Part shown: in pieces, positions 2,556-33,500 of the stretch | Position numbering within the stretch: the first letter of the stretch is position 1 | Layout: each line of letters begins with the position of its first letter | DNA from: Nitrospiria bacterium | GTDB lineage: Bacteria > Nitrospirota > Nitrospiria > DASWJH01 | DNA: 45,615 nucleotides | Assembly (NCBI GenBank): GCA_036397255.1 | Contig: DASWJH010000046.1 | Span: forward strand, 69,020-114,634 | Direction: 5' to 3' | Position numbers and translations under genes: made by a program | The notes under the pieces: generated by a model | Told to the model about the DNA's origin: nothing | Databases searched by the model: none | What the model saw: only the letters and a program-made list of their open reading frames with translations

Positions 2556-3716
2556 ATGAACGTTGGCCGGCCCTTCCTTTTCCGAGTTTTTTACTTTTCA
2601 TTTTTTGCCTGTCTTGGAATCTATCTCCCCTACTTTAACCTCTATTTAGCCGATTTAAAGTTTCAGGGGTGGCAAATCGGCCTCATGGCAGCCATCCCTC
2701 CCTTTCTAAAAATATTTTCTACCGCAGCATGGGGCTTTCTTTCAGATTATTGGCATGCCCGAAGGGGCCTAACTGTTTTGGGTTGTCTCCTGAGCTTTTT
2801 TTTCTTTTCGTTTTATATGTGGATTGAAAATTTCTGGGGTATGGTTCTAGTCATGGTGGCTTTTGGGGTTTTTTGGACCCCCACCCTCCCCCTTGTGGAA
2901 GCGACGACTCTGGAAGTGATTGAGCAGAGGAATTGGGATTATGGGAAAATCCGGTTATGGGGATCCATTGGGTTTATCCTTTTATCCACCGGATTTGGTT
3001 TTATTTTGGATCATACAACCACCCGATGGGTTATTTCGGGAATGCTTGTTTTTCTAGCCCTCAATGTCATCTCTGCAATACGGCTTCCAAGCCCAATGGT
3101 GAGTGTTTCGGACAACCAATTTAAATTAACCGGTTTTTTAAAACGCCCAGAGGTTATCTTATTTTTGACCTGCTGTTTTCTGATGCAGGCCAGTCATGGA
3201 ACCTATTATGGATTTTTTTCAATTGCCCTGGAAAATACCGGATATTCCAAAGCAACCATTGGTTTTCTTTGGGCAGAGGGGGTTGTGGGAGAAATCTTAA
3301 TCATGGTATTTGCGGGGCGTTTGTTGGCCCAACTGGGAACCCTCCCATTGGTGACGCTTTCACTTCTCCTGGCCGCTCTGCGATGGGGGATATGTTCAAT
3401 CACCTTGTCAGTGGTCCCCTTAATTATCGCCCAGCTCCTGCATGCCTTTTCTTTTGGTTTGTTTCATGTGGCTTCAGTATTTCAAATACATCAAATGGTT
3501 CCCCGGCCATTGAGGGCCAGTGGACAAAGCCTTTATAGCAGTGTTTCCTATGGAATGGGAATGGGGTTTGGATTGGTTTTTAACGGTTTTTTTTTCAAAA
3601 CCATTGGACCCTCCCCTCTCTTTGCATTCAGCGCTGTCATGGCATTAGTGGGGGCGGGATTGATTCTTTTTTTGGATCAAATTCAAGGCCAGCTGGTGGG
3701 AGAAAGAAGTACATAA
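2556..3716 (+). CDS. MFS transporter, PPP/HcaT-like
   Basis: A 386-residue major facilitator protein with about 12 hydrophobic helices. It resembles the MFS_1_like group that includes the phenylpropionate permease HcaT and nucleoside:H+ symporters. Supporting stretches are FACLGIYLPYFNLYL near the N-terminus, the cytoplasmic loop GFLSDYWHARRG (A-like motif, about residues 60-71), and WDYGKIRLWGSIGF (about residues 127-140), a hallmark of this group. It is probably an inner-membrane proton-coupled importer. The substrate cannot be told from sequence, and the neighbours (FmdE-like upstream, an unrelated convergent gene downstream) do not help. Confidence 0.85.
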   Translation: MNVGRPFLFRVFYFSFFACLGIYLPYFNLYLADLKFQGWQIGLMAAIPPFLKIFSTAAWGFLSDYWHARRGLTVLGCLLSFFFFSFYMWIENFWGMVLVMVAFGVFWTPTLPLVEATTLEVIEQRNWDYGKIRLWGSIGFILLSTGFGFILDHTTTRWVISGMLVFLALNVISAIRLPSPMVSVSDNQFKLTGFLKRPEVILFLTCCFLMQASHGTYYGFFSIALENTGYSKATIGFLWAEGVVGEILIMVFAGRLLAQLGTLPLVTLSLLLAALRWGICSITLSVVPLIIAQLLHAFSFGLFHVASVFQIHQMVPRPLRASGQSLYSSVSYGMGMGFGLVFNGFFFKTIGPSPLFAFSAVMALVGAGLILFLDQIQGQLVGERST

Positions 3717-3722
3717 ATTTTT

Positions 3723-4865
3723 TTAAAAATAGTTTTTAAAGGGTTTTTTTAAATCATACATTTTCCGTTGAACCCCGGCAATACAAACATCTCTTTTCCA
3801 CCCTGTCAACTGCTGTTGGCATCGGAGCAATCCATTTTTTGGGTGATATTTCCCCATCCGCTCCGCAGCCCCCTCAATACACATATATTGATCGTCTTTA
3901 TTCCCAAAACCACATACATAGCTGATTGGCACGTTTCCCGCGGCAATGTTTCCCATATGGGCGTTGCCTACTCCATGAAAGCAACCCAACCGGTATTTTC
4001 CTTTTAGGGCCGTACACTGTTTGACAATATCGGTAAATTCTCCTCCATGAGCAAAATGGTTTCGAAAGACATGGACCATTTTATACCGAAAACAGGCCGC
4101 GGGGAATTCCTCGGAGTCACAGGGATAAAAAAGGGATTCCCCTTCTTTTTTGTCCTGTCCCCGGACCGCCACATATTCCATATAAGCCCCCGTTGCACAA
4201 TAGTATTTTAAGGCCTCTTGATCAAACAGCCTGCAATGCCCAAGAGCCCTTGGAATATCATAATCCAAGACAAACATGACGGCATGCCCCACAGCGTGTG
4301 AACAATCACCTTCTTTATACATTTGGGTGACTGAGCCTTGATAACAAATTTCAGGAATGCGATCTTTAATCGATTCTACCAGAGAATGAACTTGGTGTTC
4401 GGAACTGGCCGGGCCATGAGAATGTCCGTTTTCCTCCAATTTAAATACCTCCATAAAGACACCATGCATGCACCCGGAATAACAGCCATCTTTGCAGGTT
4501 CGTAAGGAGGAGCCCAAATCATTAAGCTTGGAGAAAATAACCTTTCCCAGATCATGGCCTTCCCCATGGCATTTGGGGGATATTTTTTGAACCACATCCA
4601 TTATTCCATTGACGCCAATCTGATCAATATACTCTTCATAGAGTGGACGAAGTGCGGTGTGTTTTGTGATTTTTATAAATTTTTGAGAAAACTGTTTGCG
4701 TTGGTCAATTGTTTTTTCTAACGGGACCTGAAGTTTCATTGGCTCATTTGTTTTTTCTTCTACGGAAAATTGAGAAGAAGGCCGCTCAATATTCATGAAA
4801 ACGAACACCCCAGCAGCTCCTGAACCAAGTAAAAGTAAAACAAATAATGATTTTTTTGAAACCAT
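3723..4865 (-). CDS. Secreted Cys-pair repeat protein of unknown function
   Basis: A 380-residue protein with an N-terminal hydrophobic segment (LFVLLLLGSGAAGVFVFM), so exported or membrane-anchored. I do not recognise the family. After a ~60-residue linker it consists of repeated units. Each has a Cys, a variable spacer (3-14 residues), a second Cys, then roughly x2-G-x2-His/Met/Arg. Examples are CKDGCYSGCMHG, GDCSHAVGHAV, YYCATGAYMEY, LGCFHGVGNAHMG, YMCIEGAAERMG and DVCIAGVQRKMY. The even spacing and paired Cys suggest a disulfide-stapled helical solenoid, with the His perhaps binding metal or haem. There is no canonical CXXCH haem motif. It ends seven bases after the convergent MFS gene and is divergent from nfo. 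Confidence 0.75.
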   Translation of the reverse strand: MVSKKSLFVLLLLGSGAAGVFVFMNIERPSSQFSVEEKTNEPMKLQVPLEKTIDQRKQFSQKFIKITKHTALRPLYEEYIDQIGVNGIMDVVQKISPKCHGEGHDLGKVIFSKLNDLGSSLRTCKDGCYSGCMHGVFMEVFKLEENGHSHGPASSEHQVHSLVESIKDRIPEICYQGSVTQMYKEGDCSHAVGHAVMFVLDYDIPRALGHCRLFDQEALKYYCATGAYMEYVAVRGQDKKEGESLFYPCDSEEFPAACFRYKMVHVFRNHFAHGGEFTDIVKQCTALKGKYRLGCFHGVGNAHMGNIAAGNVPISYVCGFGNKDDQYMCIEGAAERMGKYHPKNGLLRCQQQLTGWKRDVCIAGVQRKMYDLKKPFKNYF

Positions 4866-5066
4866 TTTTTCCTCTCATATTAAATTCAACCCCTAAGGGT
4901 CGATTTCAAAACATTGTAAAAAAAACTAAAATCCGCTAAATTATACTAATTCATTCACCTTTTTGGCAAATCCATCTTCATTTTCCATTTTTCCTTTGAT
5001 CGCTTTTAGGAGAGGTGTTAATTTTCTATTATTTTTAATAATACTGGAAAGGAGGAAATCCTAGAG

Positions 5067-5909
5067 ATGAAATTGGGTTCCCATATGTCCATTGCAGGTG
5101 GATTGGATCACGCTATTCTTCGGGGAGAACAGGTTGGGTGTGACGCCGTTCAAATTTTTACCAAGAGCTCTACCCAATGGGCCGCAAAACCTCTCAACCC
5201 GGAGGATATAAAACGGTTTAAAAAAAAATTAAAAAAGTCTTCGGTTTCAATGGTTTTTGTTCATAATTCTTATTTAATTAACCTGGGAAGCCCCAACCAA
5301 GAGGATCGGAAAAGATCGGTGTCCGCTTTTTTGGAAGAAATGGAACGGGTGGAAACGCTTAATCTTCCCTATTTGGTTGCTCACCCTGGCGCCCACCTGG
5401 GGGCTGGGGAAGAAGAGGGTCTTCGTTGGATTGCTGAGAGTATCAATACCCTTCATCTAAAAACCAAGGGTTATCACATGAAGATTCTTTTGGAAACCAC
5501 AGCGGGTCAGGGAACAACGCTTGGACATCGGTTTGAACACTTGAAAAAAATTTTTGATCAGGTTGAAGGGTCAAACCGGTTAGGAATCTGTTTTGATACC
5601 TGTCATGTTTTTGCAGCCGGCTATGATATAAGATCGCAAACGGGTTATCAAATGGTGATGAAAGAGTTCGATAACGTGGTTGGACTCCAGCGGATCAAGG
5701 CATTTCACCTTAACGACAGCAAAAAAGATATTGGATGCCGGGTGGATCGCCATGAACATATTGGAAAAGGGTTTATTGGAAAAGAGGGTTTTAGTGCACT
5801 GATGAAGGATTCCCGTTTTAAAAATATTCCAATGGTTTTGGAAACCCCAAAGGGAAAGGAAATGCTTGAAGATTTGGAAAATCTCCGGTTTTTGCGCTCC
5901 CTGGTATAG
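5067..5909 (+). CDS. nfo: Endonuclease IV (AP endonuclease family 2)
   Basis: Cleaves DNA 5' of abasic sites in base-excision repair, using three zinc ions in a TIM barrel. The 280-residue length is typical. Metal-ligand motifs are visible in order: GSHMSIAGG at the start, LVAHPGAHLG, LLETTAGQGT, GICFDTCHVFAAGYD, AFHLNDSK, DRHEHIGKGFIG and MVLETPKG. A GGAAAGGAGG ribosome binding site precedes the ATG. It is a single gene, divergent from the Cys-pair repeat protein and convergent with a small exported protein. Confidence 0.96.
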   Translation: MKLGSHMSIAGGLDHAILRGEQVGCDAVQIFTKSSTQWAAKPLNPEDIKRFKKKLKKSSVSMVFVHNSYLINLGSPNQEDRKRSVSAFLEEMERVETLNLPYLVAHPGAHLGAGEEEGLRWIAESINTLHLKTKGYHMKILLETTAGQGTTLGHRFEHLKKIFDQVEGSNRLGICFDTCHVFAAGYDIRSQTGYQMVMKEFDNVVGLQRIKAFHLNDSKKDIGCRVDRHEHIGKGFIGKEGFSALMKDSRFKNIPMVLETPKGKEMLEDLENLRFLRSLV

Positions 5910-16642: not shown

Positions 16643-17611
16643 ATGAAAAAACCGAAGGTACTGGTCACCAGTCGGCTCCCCAAAACGGTCATGGTTGCAC
16701 TAAAAAAGCATTTTTCCATAAATTCATATGATAAACCCAAACCCCTAGCAAAACCCGAATTAATTCATAGGTTAAAAGGAATGGATGGAGTTATTTCCAT
16801 GCTTTCGGACACCTTTGATCCAGAAGTCCTTCAAAAATCCCCTTCCCTTCAAATTATTTCAAATTACGCGGTGGGCTACAACAACATTGATCTTTCCGAG
16901 GCCAAAAAACGGTCTATAATGGTGACCAATACCCCGGGTGTATTGACGGAAGCAACGTGTGATTTAACCTGGTCTCTTCTTTTAGGTGTGGCCCGGAGGA
17001 TCGTTGAAGGAGATCAACTGGTTAGAAAAGGGAAATGGAAAGGGTGGGCTCCCACCCTTTTATTGGGCCAGGAAATTTACGGGAAGACCCTGGGAATAAT
17101 CGGAATGGGAAGAATTGGACAAGGGGTTGCCCGGAGGGGCCTTGGTTTTGGGATGAAAATTTTTTATCACAACCGATCCAGACTCACTCAAAAAATGGAA
17201 AAAAGTTTAAAGGCCCAATGGGTGTCCCTTCCAATCCTTTTAAAAAAATCCGATTTCATAAGCCTTCACACCCCACTCACAATTGAAACTTATCATTGGA
17301 TAGGAAAAAAAGAATTGGGTCTAATGAAGCCAACCGCCATCCTAATTAATACCGCACGGGGTCCCATCATAGATGAGAAAGCCCTAGTTACTGCCCTAAA
17401 AAGGAAAACCATTGCAGGGGCAGGCTTGGATGTATTTGAAAAAGAACCGAAGCTTTCTAGAGGGCTAAGGAATACCCCCAATACGCTTCTTCTTCCACAT
17501 TTGGGAAGCGGAACTGTGGAAACCCGAATTCGGATGGGTATGTTGGTTTTGGAAAACCTAAAGGCTTTCTTTAAAGGTAGACGCCCTCCTCACGCCATTC
17601 ATCATCTTTAG
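16643..17611 (+). CDS. D-2-hydroxyacid dehydrogenase, glyoxylate/hydroxypyruvate reductase-like
   Basis: 322 residues. The NAD(P)-binding motif GMGRIGQGVARRG is followed by HNRSR at the end of the next strand, where basic residues suggest NADPH preference. The catalytic triad is visible: Arg in NTARGPIIDE, Glu in DVFEKEP, His in LLPHLGSGT. The substrate-loop region SNYAVGYNNIDL is typical of glyoxylate/hydroxypyruvate reductases (GhrB/GyaR type) rather than lactate dehydrogenase. It probably reduces glyoxylate or hydroxypyruvate in the cytosol; the substrate is inferred from family resemblance. Confidence 0.88.
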   Translation: MKKPKVLVTSRLPKTVMVALKKHFSINSYDKPKPLAKPELIHRLKGMDGVISMLSDTFDPEVLQKSPSLQIISNYAVGYNNIDLSEAKKRSIMVTNTPGVLTEATCDLTWSLLLGVARRIVEGDQLVRKGKWKGWAPTLLLGQEIYGKTLGIIGMGRIGQGVARRGLGFGMKIFYHNRSRLTQKMEKSLKAQWVSLPILLKKSDFISLHTPLTIETYHWIGKKELGLMKPTAILINTARGPIIDEKALVTALKRKTIAGAGLDVFEKEPKLSRGLRNTPNTLLLPHLGSGTVETRIRMGMLVLENLKAFFKGRRPPHAIHHL

Positions 17612-17629
17612 AACCGATAGGCATGAGAG

Positions 17630-17658
17630 TTGCTTTCCTCGCAATTGGGTGATATGAT
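17630..17658 (+). promoter_or_regulatory. Candidate sigma70 promoter for the htrA pair
   Basis: TTGCTT, 17 bases, TATGAT. The -10 matches five of six consensus positions. It lies about 50 bases before the first protease gene. Confidence 0.4.
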
Positions 17659-17706
17659 TAAATTAACTTTGCTTTTTCCCTTAAAAATTAAGGAGAAAAG
17701 AATCCC

Positions 17707-19098
17707 ATGACCCATAATAAATTCCCCTACTTCAAAGCCAAAGTGAGAAATGTATTTTTACCTCTCCTTTTTTTTGGTTTTACTTTCTTTCCTTTTCCGA
17801 CTCTTTCATATGCAGATCAAAGCGGGACCGTGCTTTTGGGGCAAATTGAGAATGTTTTTACGGAAATTGCCGATACCGTTACTCCAGCGGTGGTCAATAT
17901 TTCCCCTTTAACCGATGGACCGGAATCTCTTTCCCAATCCCCCAGGAGGCATCCGGATGCCCCAGGAAGTGGATCGGGGGTCATCATCGACCCATCCGGA
18001 TTTATCGTCACTAATAAACATGTGGTGGGAGATGCTACTTCGGTGAGCGTAGGATTATCCGATCGAAGTAGGTTTACCGGAAAGGTAATTGGAAGGGATA
18101 CCGATACAGACATTGCCGTTGTAAAAATTTCTGGAAATCACAATTTCCCGTTCGTTCCTTTAGGAAACTCCGACAAACTTAAAGTTGGCCAGTGGGTCAT
18201 TGCCGTGGGTAACCCTTTCGGCCTTGACCGAACCGTTACCGTTGGCATAATCAGCGGATTGGGGCGAGAGCAAGTAAACCTCACCCGATTTGAAAATTTT
18301 ATTCAAACCGACGCATCCATCAACCCCGGAAACAGTGGGGGTCCCCTCTTCAATATACAGGGGGAGGTGGTCGGCATTAATACGGCTATCATCAACTTTG
18401 CCCAGGGAATTGGTTTTGCCATTCCCTCCAATATGACGGAAAATATTGTCCGGCAACTGAGAACCACGGGAAAGGTCGCACGAGGATGGCTGGGGGTTGG
18501 TATTCAACCTCTTACCGAGGAACTTTCAAGTAAATTTGGAGCTGATGAAACGGAAGGGGTATTGGTGAATGAGATATTCGAAGGAGATCCTGCCGAGAGA
18601 GGGGGAATTCAAGCGGGGGATATTATAACCAAAATCGGAGAAAAAAAGGTCACTACCCCACGAACCCTCGCTAGAATCATTGCAGGAGTTATGCCGGGCG
18701 AAAAAATTAAGATTGATGTCATCCGCAACCAAAAACATAAAATCCTATCCGTGGTTCTTGGGGAAAGAAAAGACGGGGTGGTCCCCGCCTCCAACCCTTC
18801 CCTGGAAAAGGGGCCCAATGGCATTCATATACAAGAATTAACCAAAGCCCTTTCAGAAAAATTCGGTGTGGATGCTAAGTCGGGAGTTTTGATCACTGAA
18901 ATCGATCCTGATAGCCCCGCTGCAGAAGGTGGTTTAAAGCAAGGGGACGTCATCCAAGAGATTAATCGGGAAAAGGTAGGTTCTCCAAAGGAATTTAATC
19001 AAATTTTAAAAAAAGTAAAAAAAGAGGAAGACCTTCTCTTTCGAATCATACGAGAAAATAGGGGCCTTTTTTTGGTGGTTAAACCAAGGGAGAAATAG
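17707..19098 (+). CDS. HtrA/Deg-family periplasmic serine protease, copy 1
   Basis: 463 residues. A signal peptide (FLPLLFFGFTFFPFPTLSYA) precedes a trypsin-like domain with His in IVTNKHVVGDA, Asp in RDTDTDIAVVKI and Ser in SINPGNSGGPLFN. Two PDZ domains follow (about residues 265-355 and 375-460), each ending in the GDxI-type loop (GGIQAGDIITKIGEKKV, GGLKQGDVIQEINREKV). It degrades or chaperones misfolded envelope proteins. It is followed after only three bases by a close paralogue, so both are probably one transcript. Confidence 0.94.
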   Translation: MTHNKFPYFKAKVRNVFLPLLFFGFTFFPFPTLSYADQSGTVLLGQIENVFTEIADTVTPAVVNISPLTDGPESLSQSPRRHPDAPGSGSGVIIDPSGFIVTNKHVVGDATSVSVGLSDRSRFTGKVIGRDTDTDIAVVKISGNHNFPFVPLGNSDKLKVGQWVIAVGNPFGLDRTVTVGIISGLGREQVNLTRFENFIQTDASINPGNSGGPLFNIQGEVVGINTAIINFAQGIGFAIPSNMTENIVRQLRTTGKVARGWLGVGIQPLTEELSSKFGADETEGVLVNEIFEGDPAERGGIQAGDIITKIGEKKVTTPRTLARIIAGVMPGEKIKIDVIRNQKHKILSVVLGERKDGVVPASNPSLEKGPNGIHIQELTKALSEKFGVDAKSGVLITEIDPDSPAAEGGLKQGDVIQEINREKVGSPKEFNQILKKVKKEEDLLFRIIRENRGLFLVVKPREK

Positions 19099-27071: not shown

Positions 27072-27563
27072 CTAATCAACAAGAAACTGGTGGTTCATCC
27101 CTAAAAGAAAATGAGGTTTTCCCGTTTCGGTATCTACCATAAAACAGAGCAAAATATAATTCCCCGTTTCAAAGTTTGCAGTGAAAACCCCCACTTCACC
27201 TTTATTTAGGGGGTGCATATTGGCTATTGTCCGCCCGGAAGCGGACAAAGAACGGCCGGCCTTAAAATTTGAGAGAAAATCATTTACTGTTTTTCCAGGG
27301 TGGAGACGAAAAACAACTAATTCGTGGGTTATGGTTCCAACGTTACTTACCCTGATGTTTCGAACCCCGGGATGAACAGAGCCGGTTGGTTTTATTTCAA
27401 ATTCGTAAACCATTACATCAAGATCCTCTGAAAAAGGTTTGATTAAAGGATCAGTTTGGGTCTGAGCAAAAACTGGAGAAAATAAAAACAAATGGAAACA
27501 TGAAAGAAGAAAAAAATAGAGGACGGGGAAATGAATGGGAATTTTCAACCGAATTAGGTCCAT
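27072..27563 (-). CDS. Exported cupredoxin-like protein
   Basis: 163 residues. A signal peptide (VLYFFLLSCFHLFLFSPVFA) is followed by a small beta-rich domain resembling cupredoxins: IRVSNVGTITHELVVFRL carries a His, and the end reads YILLCFMVDTETGKPHFLLGMNHQF, giving Cys-x10-His-x4-Met. His plus Cys-His-Met is the ligand set of a type 1 copper site, so a periplasmic copper or electron-transfer protein is likely, though the assignment is by motif only. The ATG has an AGGG eight bases upstream. It stands alone between the frameshifted DUF2703 gene and a repeat-containing spacer. Confidence 0.65.
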   Translation of the reverse strand: MDLIRLKIPIHFPVLYFFLLSCFHLFLFSPVFAQTQTDPLIKPFSEDLDVMVYEFEIKPTGSVHPGVRNIRVSNVGTITHELVVFRLHPGKTVNDFLSNFKAGRSLSASGRTIANMHPLNKGEVGVFTANFETGNYILLCFMVDTETGKPHFLLGMNHQFLVD

Positions 27564-32903: not shown

Positions 32904-33500
32904 ATGTTTCAAACCTTTGAACAGGTTGTGGCCTTTCACGGCCATCTGTGCATGGATATCGCACTAGGGTATCGCGTGGCCAAAGCCGCCCTTGAGGAAC
33001 TCTCCTCCCAAAGACCCAAAGACGAGGAGCTGGTGGCCGAGGTGGAAACGGACTCCTGTTCTGTGGATGCCATCCAAGCCGTCACGGGTTGCACCTTCGG
33101 AAAAGGAAATCTGTTCTACCACCCGAATGGTAAGGCAGCCTATTCTTTTTATGATCGAACATCGAAAAAAGCCATTCGGATTTATTGCCATTTTTGGAAG
33201 GGGTTCGATGAGGGTGAAGGAATCGATTTCATGAATCAGATGAACAAAGTGCTCGCTGGAAAAGCAACCCCAGAAGATGTTTTTACCTTCCAAAAAACAA
33301 TGGAGAACATCTCCAAACGGATACTGGATGCCCCTGCCCAGGAGTTATTTACCATCAGCCACATACAAAAAACACCCCCTTCTCCCGCCCGGATTTTTAA
33401 ATCCAAATCCTGTGATCAGTGCAAGGAATGGACAATGGAAACCTGTCTCCATCAAAAAAACAATAAAATGCTTTGCCCCTCTTGTTTCAAATCCACCTGA
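32904..33500 (+). CDS. FmdE family protein, copy 2 (198 aa)
   Basis: Paralogue of the protein at 1742. The core VAFHGHLCMDIALGYRVAKAA has the fuller FHGHLC motif (copy 1 has FHRHLC). It is followed by CSVDAIQAVTGCTFGKGNL and RIYCHFWKGFD. The C-terminal zinc ribbon has CDQC and CPSC pairs. It has a strong AAGGAG ribosome binding site. It is divergent from arsC and convergent with the Kelch lipoprotein. Function in bacteria unknown; a metal-bound or molybdenum/tungsten-related role is suggested by the family only. Confidence 0.87.
   Translation: MFQTFEQVVAFHGHLCMDIALGYRVAKAALEELSSQRPKDEELVAEVETDSCSVDAIQAVTGCTFGKGNLFYHPNGKAAYSFYDRTSKKAIRIYCHFWKGFDEGEGIDFMNQMNKVLAGKATPEDVFTFQKTMENISKRILDAPAQELFTISHIQKTPPSPARIFKSKSCDQCKEWTMETCLHQKNNKMLCPSCFKST

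Follow-up and report, generated by a model that had tools for sequence, protein, structure and literature searches.

Exported repeats of the Helicobacter cysteine-rich protein (Hcp) or Sel1-like type are helical hairpins of ~35-40 residues, each held by one disulfide. In peptidylglycine alpha-hydroxylating monooxygenase (PHM), a two-copper monooxygenase, the metal site is formed by five histidines and one methionine on a beta-sandwich fold, and the type 3 copper proteins haemocyanin and tyrosinase carry H-x3-H motifs on helices together with further histidines. The 380-aa protein described here, encoded within the window (the whole 45,615-nucleotide stretch of DNA that was analyzed), belongs to a real and widespread family that is absent from the curated libraries searched. 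We tentatively propose that it is an extracytoplasmic, disulfide-clamped helical solenoid with a multi-histidine metal site, likely for copper, some of whose kin occur beside cupredoxins.

Gene and Genomic Context

The coding sequence is a minus-strand open reading frame (4865..3723) with an ATG start and a stop codon at 3723-3725, exactly as located in the original prediction, and a search of its own genome returned it as a single copy (100% match). The gene stands alone, convergent with a gene at 2556-3716, which from reading its translation we take to encode an MFS-type transporter, and divergent from a gene at 5067-5909, presumably an endonuclease IV gene, likewise named from its translation. 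A candidate sigma-70-like promoter (TTGCCA-18-TATAAT, minus strand, 4940..4969) lies ~75 bases upstream of the start codon; it is a consensus match only (11/12), from a scan that found five such sites against 3.2 in shuffled sequence.

Two other features of the window were recorded. An exported 163-aa protein encoded at 27072-27563 (minus strand) looks cupredoxin-like by eye and has no Pfam match at E<=0.01. Two paralogous proteins of ~200 aa (1742-2344 and 32904-33500) share an FHRHLC/FHGHLC motif and C-terminal Cys pairs, and we presume from their appearance that they resemble formylmethanofuran dehydrogenase subunit E-like proteins.

Predicted Disulfide-Clamped Hairpin Architecture

The N-terminus fits the signal anchor claimed earlier, since two lysines precede a hydrophobic segment (residues 5-24, minus strand, 4794..4853; Kyte-Doolittle maximum 2.33 over 15 residues) that would function as either a signal peptide or a signal anchor. 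A similar N-terminus for export is found in most relatives, two of which have a lipobox. Judged from its sequence, the protein is exported, either membrane-anchored or secreted.

All 16 cysteines fall into eight pairs, listed here with their minus-strand coordinates. The first putative disulfide, C99 to C128 (4482..4571), encloses an H-x3-H motif (H100, H104). The C124 to C132 clamp (4470..4496) is followed by the invariant H134 and by G135, the C174 to C188 clamp (4284..4346) includes the sequence C-x-H-x2-G-H (H190, G193, H194), and the C211 to C223 clamp (4176..4235) is accompanied by G226-x2-M229-E230. The remaining pairs are C249 to C258 (4092..4121; C258 conserved at 98%, C249 at 76%), C284 to C295 (3981..4016), C318 to C329 (3879..3914), and C349 to C361 (3783..3821), with 97% conservation for each cysteine of the last two pairs.

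The original prediction had described at least seven Cys-pair units, each ending in an x2-Gly-x2-His/Met/Arg tail. Those units are the last seven of the eight pairs, and the Cys-pair plan stands: their Cys spacers are 7-13 residues long, the second cysteines of successive units are ~35 residues apart from unit 3 onward, and C-x7-14-C-x2-[G/A] is found six times in the mature protein, whereas shuffled sequences average 0.86 and only 10 of 20,000 reach six. The tail, however, is true of some units only. The +3 residue is Gly in units 124-132, 211-223, 284-295, 318-329, and 349-361, Ala in unit 174-188, and Tyr in unit 249-258, and the +6 residue is variable. Pair 99-128 and the H-x3-H motif at the start of the conserved core had been overlooked.

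Relatives provide evidence on which cysteines are partners. Across 44 non-redundant sequences, C124 and C132 are either both there or both missing, with one exception, and the same holds for C99 and C128. Below 40% identity there is no exception, with both cysteines in 21 sequences and neither in 14 for 124-132, and both in 24 and neither in nine for 99-128. Fisher tests at this identity gave p values of 4e-10 (124-132), 3e-8 (99-128), and 2e-4 (284-295), which ignore the relatedness of the sequences and are indicative only. Parsimony on the tree requires 5-6 changes at positions 124 and 132 and three at 99 and 128, so these co-losses arose more than once. Joint loss was also seen for C284-C295 in three sequences and for C318-C329 and C349-C361 in one exceptional sequence each. 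Because the cysteines disappear in pairs, they give direct evidence of disulfide partners that does not depend on a structural model. Pairs 174-188, 211-223, and 249-258 vary too little or too unevenly for this test, and we pair them on the basis of their spacing and the analogy of the other pairs.

AlphaFold models from three sequences predict an all-helical hairpin array (pLDDT 71.8 and 73.8, pTM 0.66). The paired loss of cysteines and these models together lend strong support to the disulfide-clamped helical hairpins first suggested from the sequence, and we regard that architecture as highly probable. Foldseek searches of the PDB and BFVD with the moderate-confidence model returned nothing at E<=0.001, only generic helical solenoids, the best matches (E>=0.05) being chains of HEAT, PPR, and annexin proteins.

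A Conserved Histidine and Methionine Core

The strongest conservation lies in the first part of the solenoid. H104, H134, C188, H190, G193, H194, C211, C223, and G226 are invariant in 44/44 aligned rows, and H100 (at least 90%), M229 (91%), and E230 (82%) are nearly so, even though the alignment spans several phyla and includes sequences only ~20% identical to the query. H-x3-H occurs in its expected context in 67 of 73 sequences; the other six comprise three fragments lacking the region, one broken copy, and two sequences with Ser at H100. In one clade the profile alignment misreads H100 as another residue, whereas the sequence itself keeps H-x3-H. The complete core, H-x3-H-x2-[GSA] ... HG ... 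C-x-H-x2-GH ... C-x2-G-x2-M, is present in 64/73 sequences, the rest being fragments or slight variants, and in none of 537 neighboring non-family ORFs.

In the predicted structure, the second helices of hairpins one to four carry H100, H104, H134, H190, H194, and M229, and this placement makes one site likelier than an array. The earlier idea of a "metal or haem array" is thus only partly supported, in its His and Met residues and not in their extension along the solenoid, as histidines of later units, such as H297, are not conserved. It is probable that the conserved histidines constitute a metal site. The export signal, the family itself, the covarying cysteine pairs, the invariant histidines, and the cupredoxin link of certain lineages are shown; what we infer is the proximity of these histidines in the fold, the presence of a metal and which one it is, and any catalytic role.

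Association With Cupredoxins

The neighbors that recur across genera are cupredoxins, and no other neighbor does so. In three genomes of the phylum that includes Candidatus Uhrbacteria (G574, G577, and G488), family members form in-frame fusions with a cupredoxin-like domain that bears WPAS-x-x-HPTH and YH[DN]H/FHDH motifs. The domain is located at the N-terminus of three proteins and at the C-terminus of one; one fusion protein matches Pfam Cupredoxin_1 at E 1.5e-5. The Cys ligand usual in cupredoxins is missing from the fused domains, so classical electron transport may not be their role. Cupredoxin genes also adjoin other family members. Of 41 Cupredoxin_1 places in 15 genomes, eight are no more than 4 kb from a family gene against 0.55 expected, and none of 200,000 simulations reached eight under a null of random placement; five genomes contribute (P 3.5e-5). 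A caveat is that cupredoxins are common in that phylum, occurring in 92/145 genomes.

The link is absent from the window's own clade and from the largest genus group, where the neighbors are unrelated genes. Copper is therefore extended to the window protein by homology. Among single instances, the Kitasatospora member adjoins a Caa3_CtaG oxidase-assembly gene, and one pair of members follows a DsbA-like thioredoxin gene.

Some of these loci have a richer organization. A run at L119:7048-12075 encodes a cupredoxin, a multi-spanning membrane protein, a family-cupredoxin fusion, and a further membrane protein, neither membrane protein having a Pfam match, and this run may constitute a small module for redox or metal handling. 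Two GDSL-lipase-like genes (L117:14201-15376 and 16768-17790, minus strand) are interleaved with cupredoxin-fused members.

Distribution and Relatives

Searches of Pfam, NCBIfam, PHROGs, and PDB sequences left the family unmatched apart from scattered chance hits, and among 37 diverse members compared with the libraries no family recurs meaningfully, in agreement with the original remark that the domain was not recognizable. Searches of open-licence papers, covering Hcp-like proteins, copper sites, and the cupredoxins of Patescibacteria, turned up no account of the family. Polysaccharide deacetylase chains in the PDB (E ~0.5) were rejected as relatives, H-x3-H being the sole common feature, and a phage origin is unsupported, with no relative in phage records or viral contigs.

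Profile searches found members in 37/396 genomes of the window's own phylum and in 14/287 of the Uhrbacteria-containing phylum, as well as on Kitasatospora and Gemmatirosa replicons. The window genome is the sole representative of its order among the genomes compared. A relative at 43% identity is encoded in a Candidatus Uhrbacteria genome, which also carries a second, distant paralogue. The tree places the window protein with the Uhrbacteria protein (support 0.956) and also with proteins from two genomes of its own class, L003 (0.994) and L055 (0.858); its grouping with the Uhrbacteria protein suggests transfer between phyla.

Several loci show expansion or decay of the family. At L115:8507-19846 and L117:7789-19275, divergent family genes stand in tandem, five or six per array and some of them fused to a cupredoxin; the genomes with such arrays, G574 and G577, are roughly 1 Mb in size, and G577 has about eight family copies. 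Between family genes of the first array, L115:9940-12837 encodes a 966-aa exported protein without a Pfam match; its Cys-rich repeats have the form CNNLEECTNYCEDPVNYSSCATFAKQNG, and after them comes a long low-complexity tail rich in Tyr, Thr, and Pro. In genome G444, the family gene at L070:1636-2492 is interrupted by stop codons and is likely a pseudogene.

Distant phyla thus share an uncatalogued family whose core is conserved like that of an enzyme, and small-genome bacteria of the Uhrbacteria type keep up to about eight copies of it. If the histidine site binds copper, the family would offer a new scaffold for extracytoplasmic copper biology and a testable function for a gene expanded in reduced genomes.

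Proposed Function and Alternatives

We hypothesize that every hairpin is held closed by a single Cys pair, with pair 99-128 joining the first two hairpins, and that the first four hairpins form the functional core, in which H100/H104, H134, H190/H194, and M229/E230 would jointly bind a transition metal, likely copper. The protein would then be an extracytoplasmic one that binds copper or takes part in copper redox chemistry, and it would trade metal or electrons with cupredoxins, its fused partners in some lineages. The variable C-terminal hairpins would probably contribute stability or partner binding. Copper is our leading guess for the metal, although a loose one; a set of invariant histidines could also serve the structure, or ligate haem or zinc.

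The conserved histidines, and the methionine, could instead hold a b-type haem or non-haem iron in an extracytoplasmic electron-transfer or oxygen-handling protein, for which the cupredoxin link would reflect redox partnership and not shared copper. His and Met ligands and redox-partner neighbors fit haem or iron as well as they fit copper, but two H-x3-H motifs and one more histidine exceed the needs of a haem, and a c-type haem is rejected because CxxCH is absent from all 73 sequences; we consider a haem or iron site unlikely. Zinc or another hydrolase-type metal site, or purely structural histidines, would reduce the neighborhood to a co-location of exported genes. H-x3-H is common in zinc sites, and the neighborhood test took random placement as its null; in-frame cupredoxin fusions in three genomes, N-terminal in some and C-terminal in another, argue against such a reading, to which we assign a low probability. 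A binding scaffold akin to the Sel1-type Hcp proteins, with a surface on which protein or glycan ligands dock and a histidine cluster whose role is specific to the fold, would suit the ~35-residue repeat length, the disulfide-stapled hairpins, the variable C-terminal hairpins, and the tandem paralogue arrays, but is quite improbable given that conservation is strongest in the core His, Gly, and Met residues and not on a variable binding face, and that a Sel1 or TPR profile appears among the Pfam matches (E<=1) of 0/37 members.

Comparison With Known Systems

The copper-binding or copper-redox protein that we favor resembles the Hcp and Sel1-like proteins in plan only, through one disulfide per hairpin repeat; unlike them, the family has a conserved histidine core, and Foldseek searches with the moderate-confidence model gave no significant structural match. 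Cupredoxins (PF13473) are fused to or lie beside the family in several genomes, whereas the window protein itself has no cupredoxin domain. With type 3 copper proteins it shares H-x3-H on helices and a further histidine, although its conserved set has five histidines against their six, and Pfam, PDB, and Foldseek searches gave no sequence or fold match to tyrosinase or haemocyanin. A bolder proposal, and one we think rather improbable, is a new class of copper or dinuclear-metal enzyme, in which a site of five His and one Met is carried by a helical solenoid stapled by disulfides, and not by a beta-sandwich or a four-helix bundle, with fused cupredoxins as the electron or metal partner. PHM matches this protein in its ligand inventory alone, five histidines and one methionine; PHM is a beta-sandwich and the window protein is predicted to be all-helical, so that the two are alike in ligand count and not in kinship.
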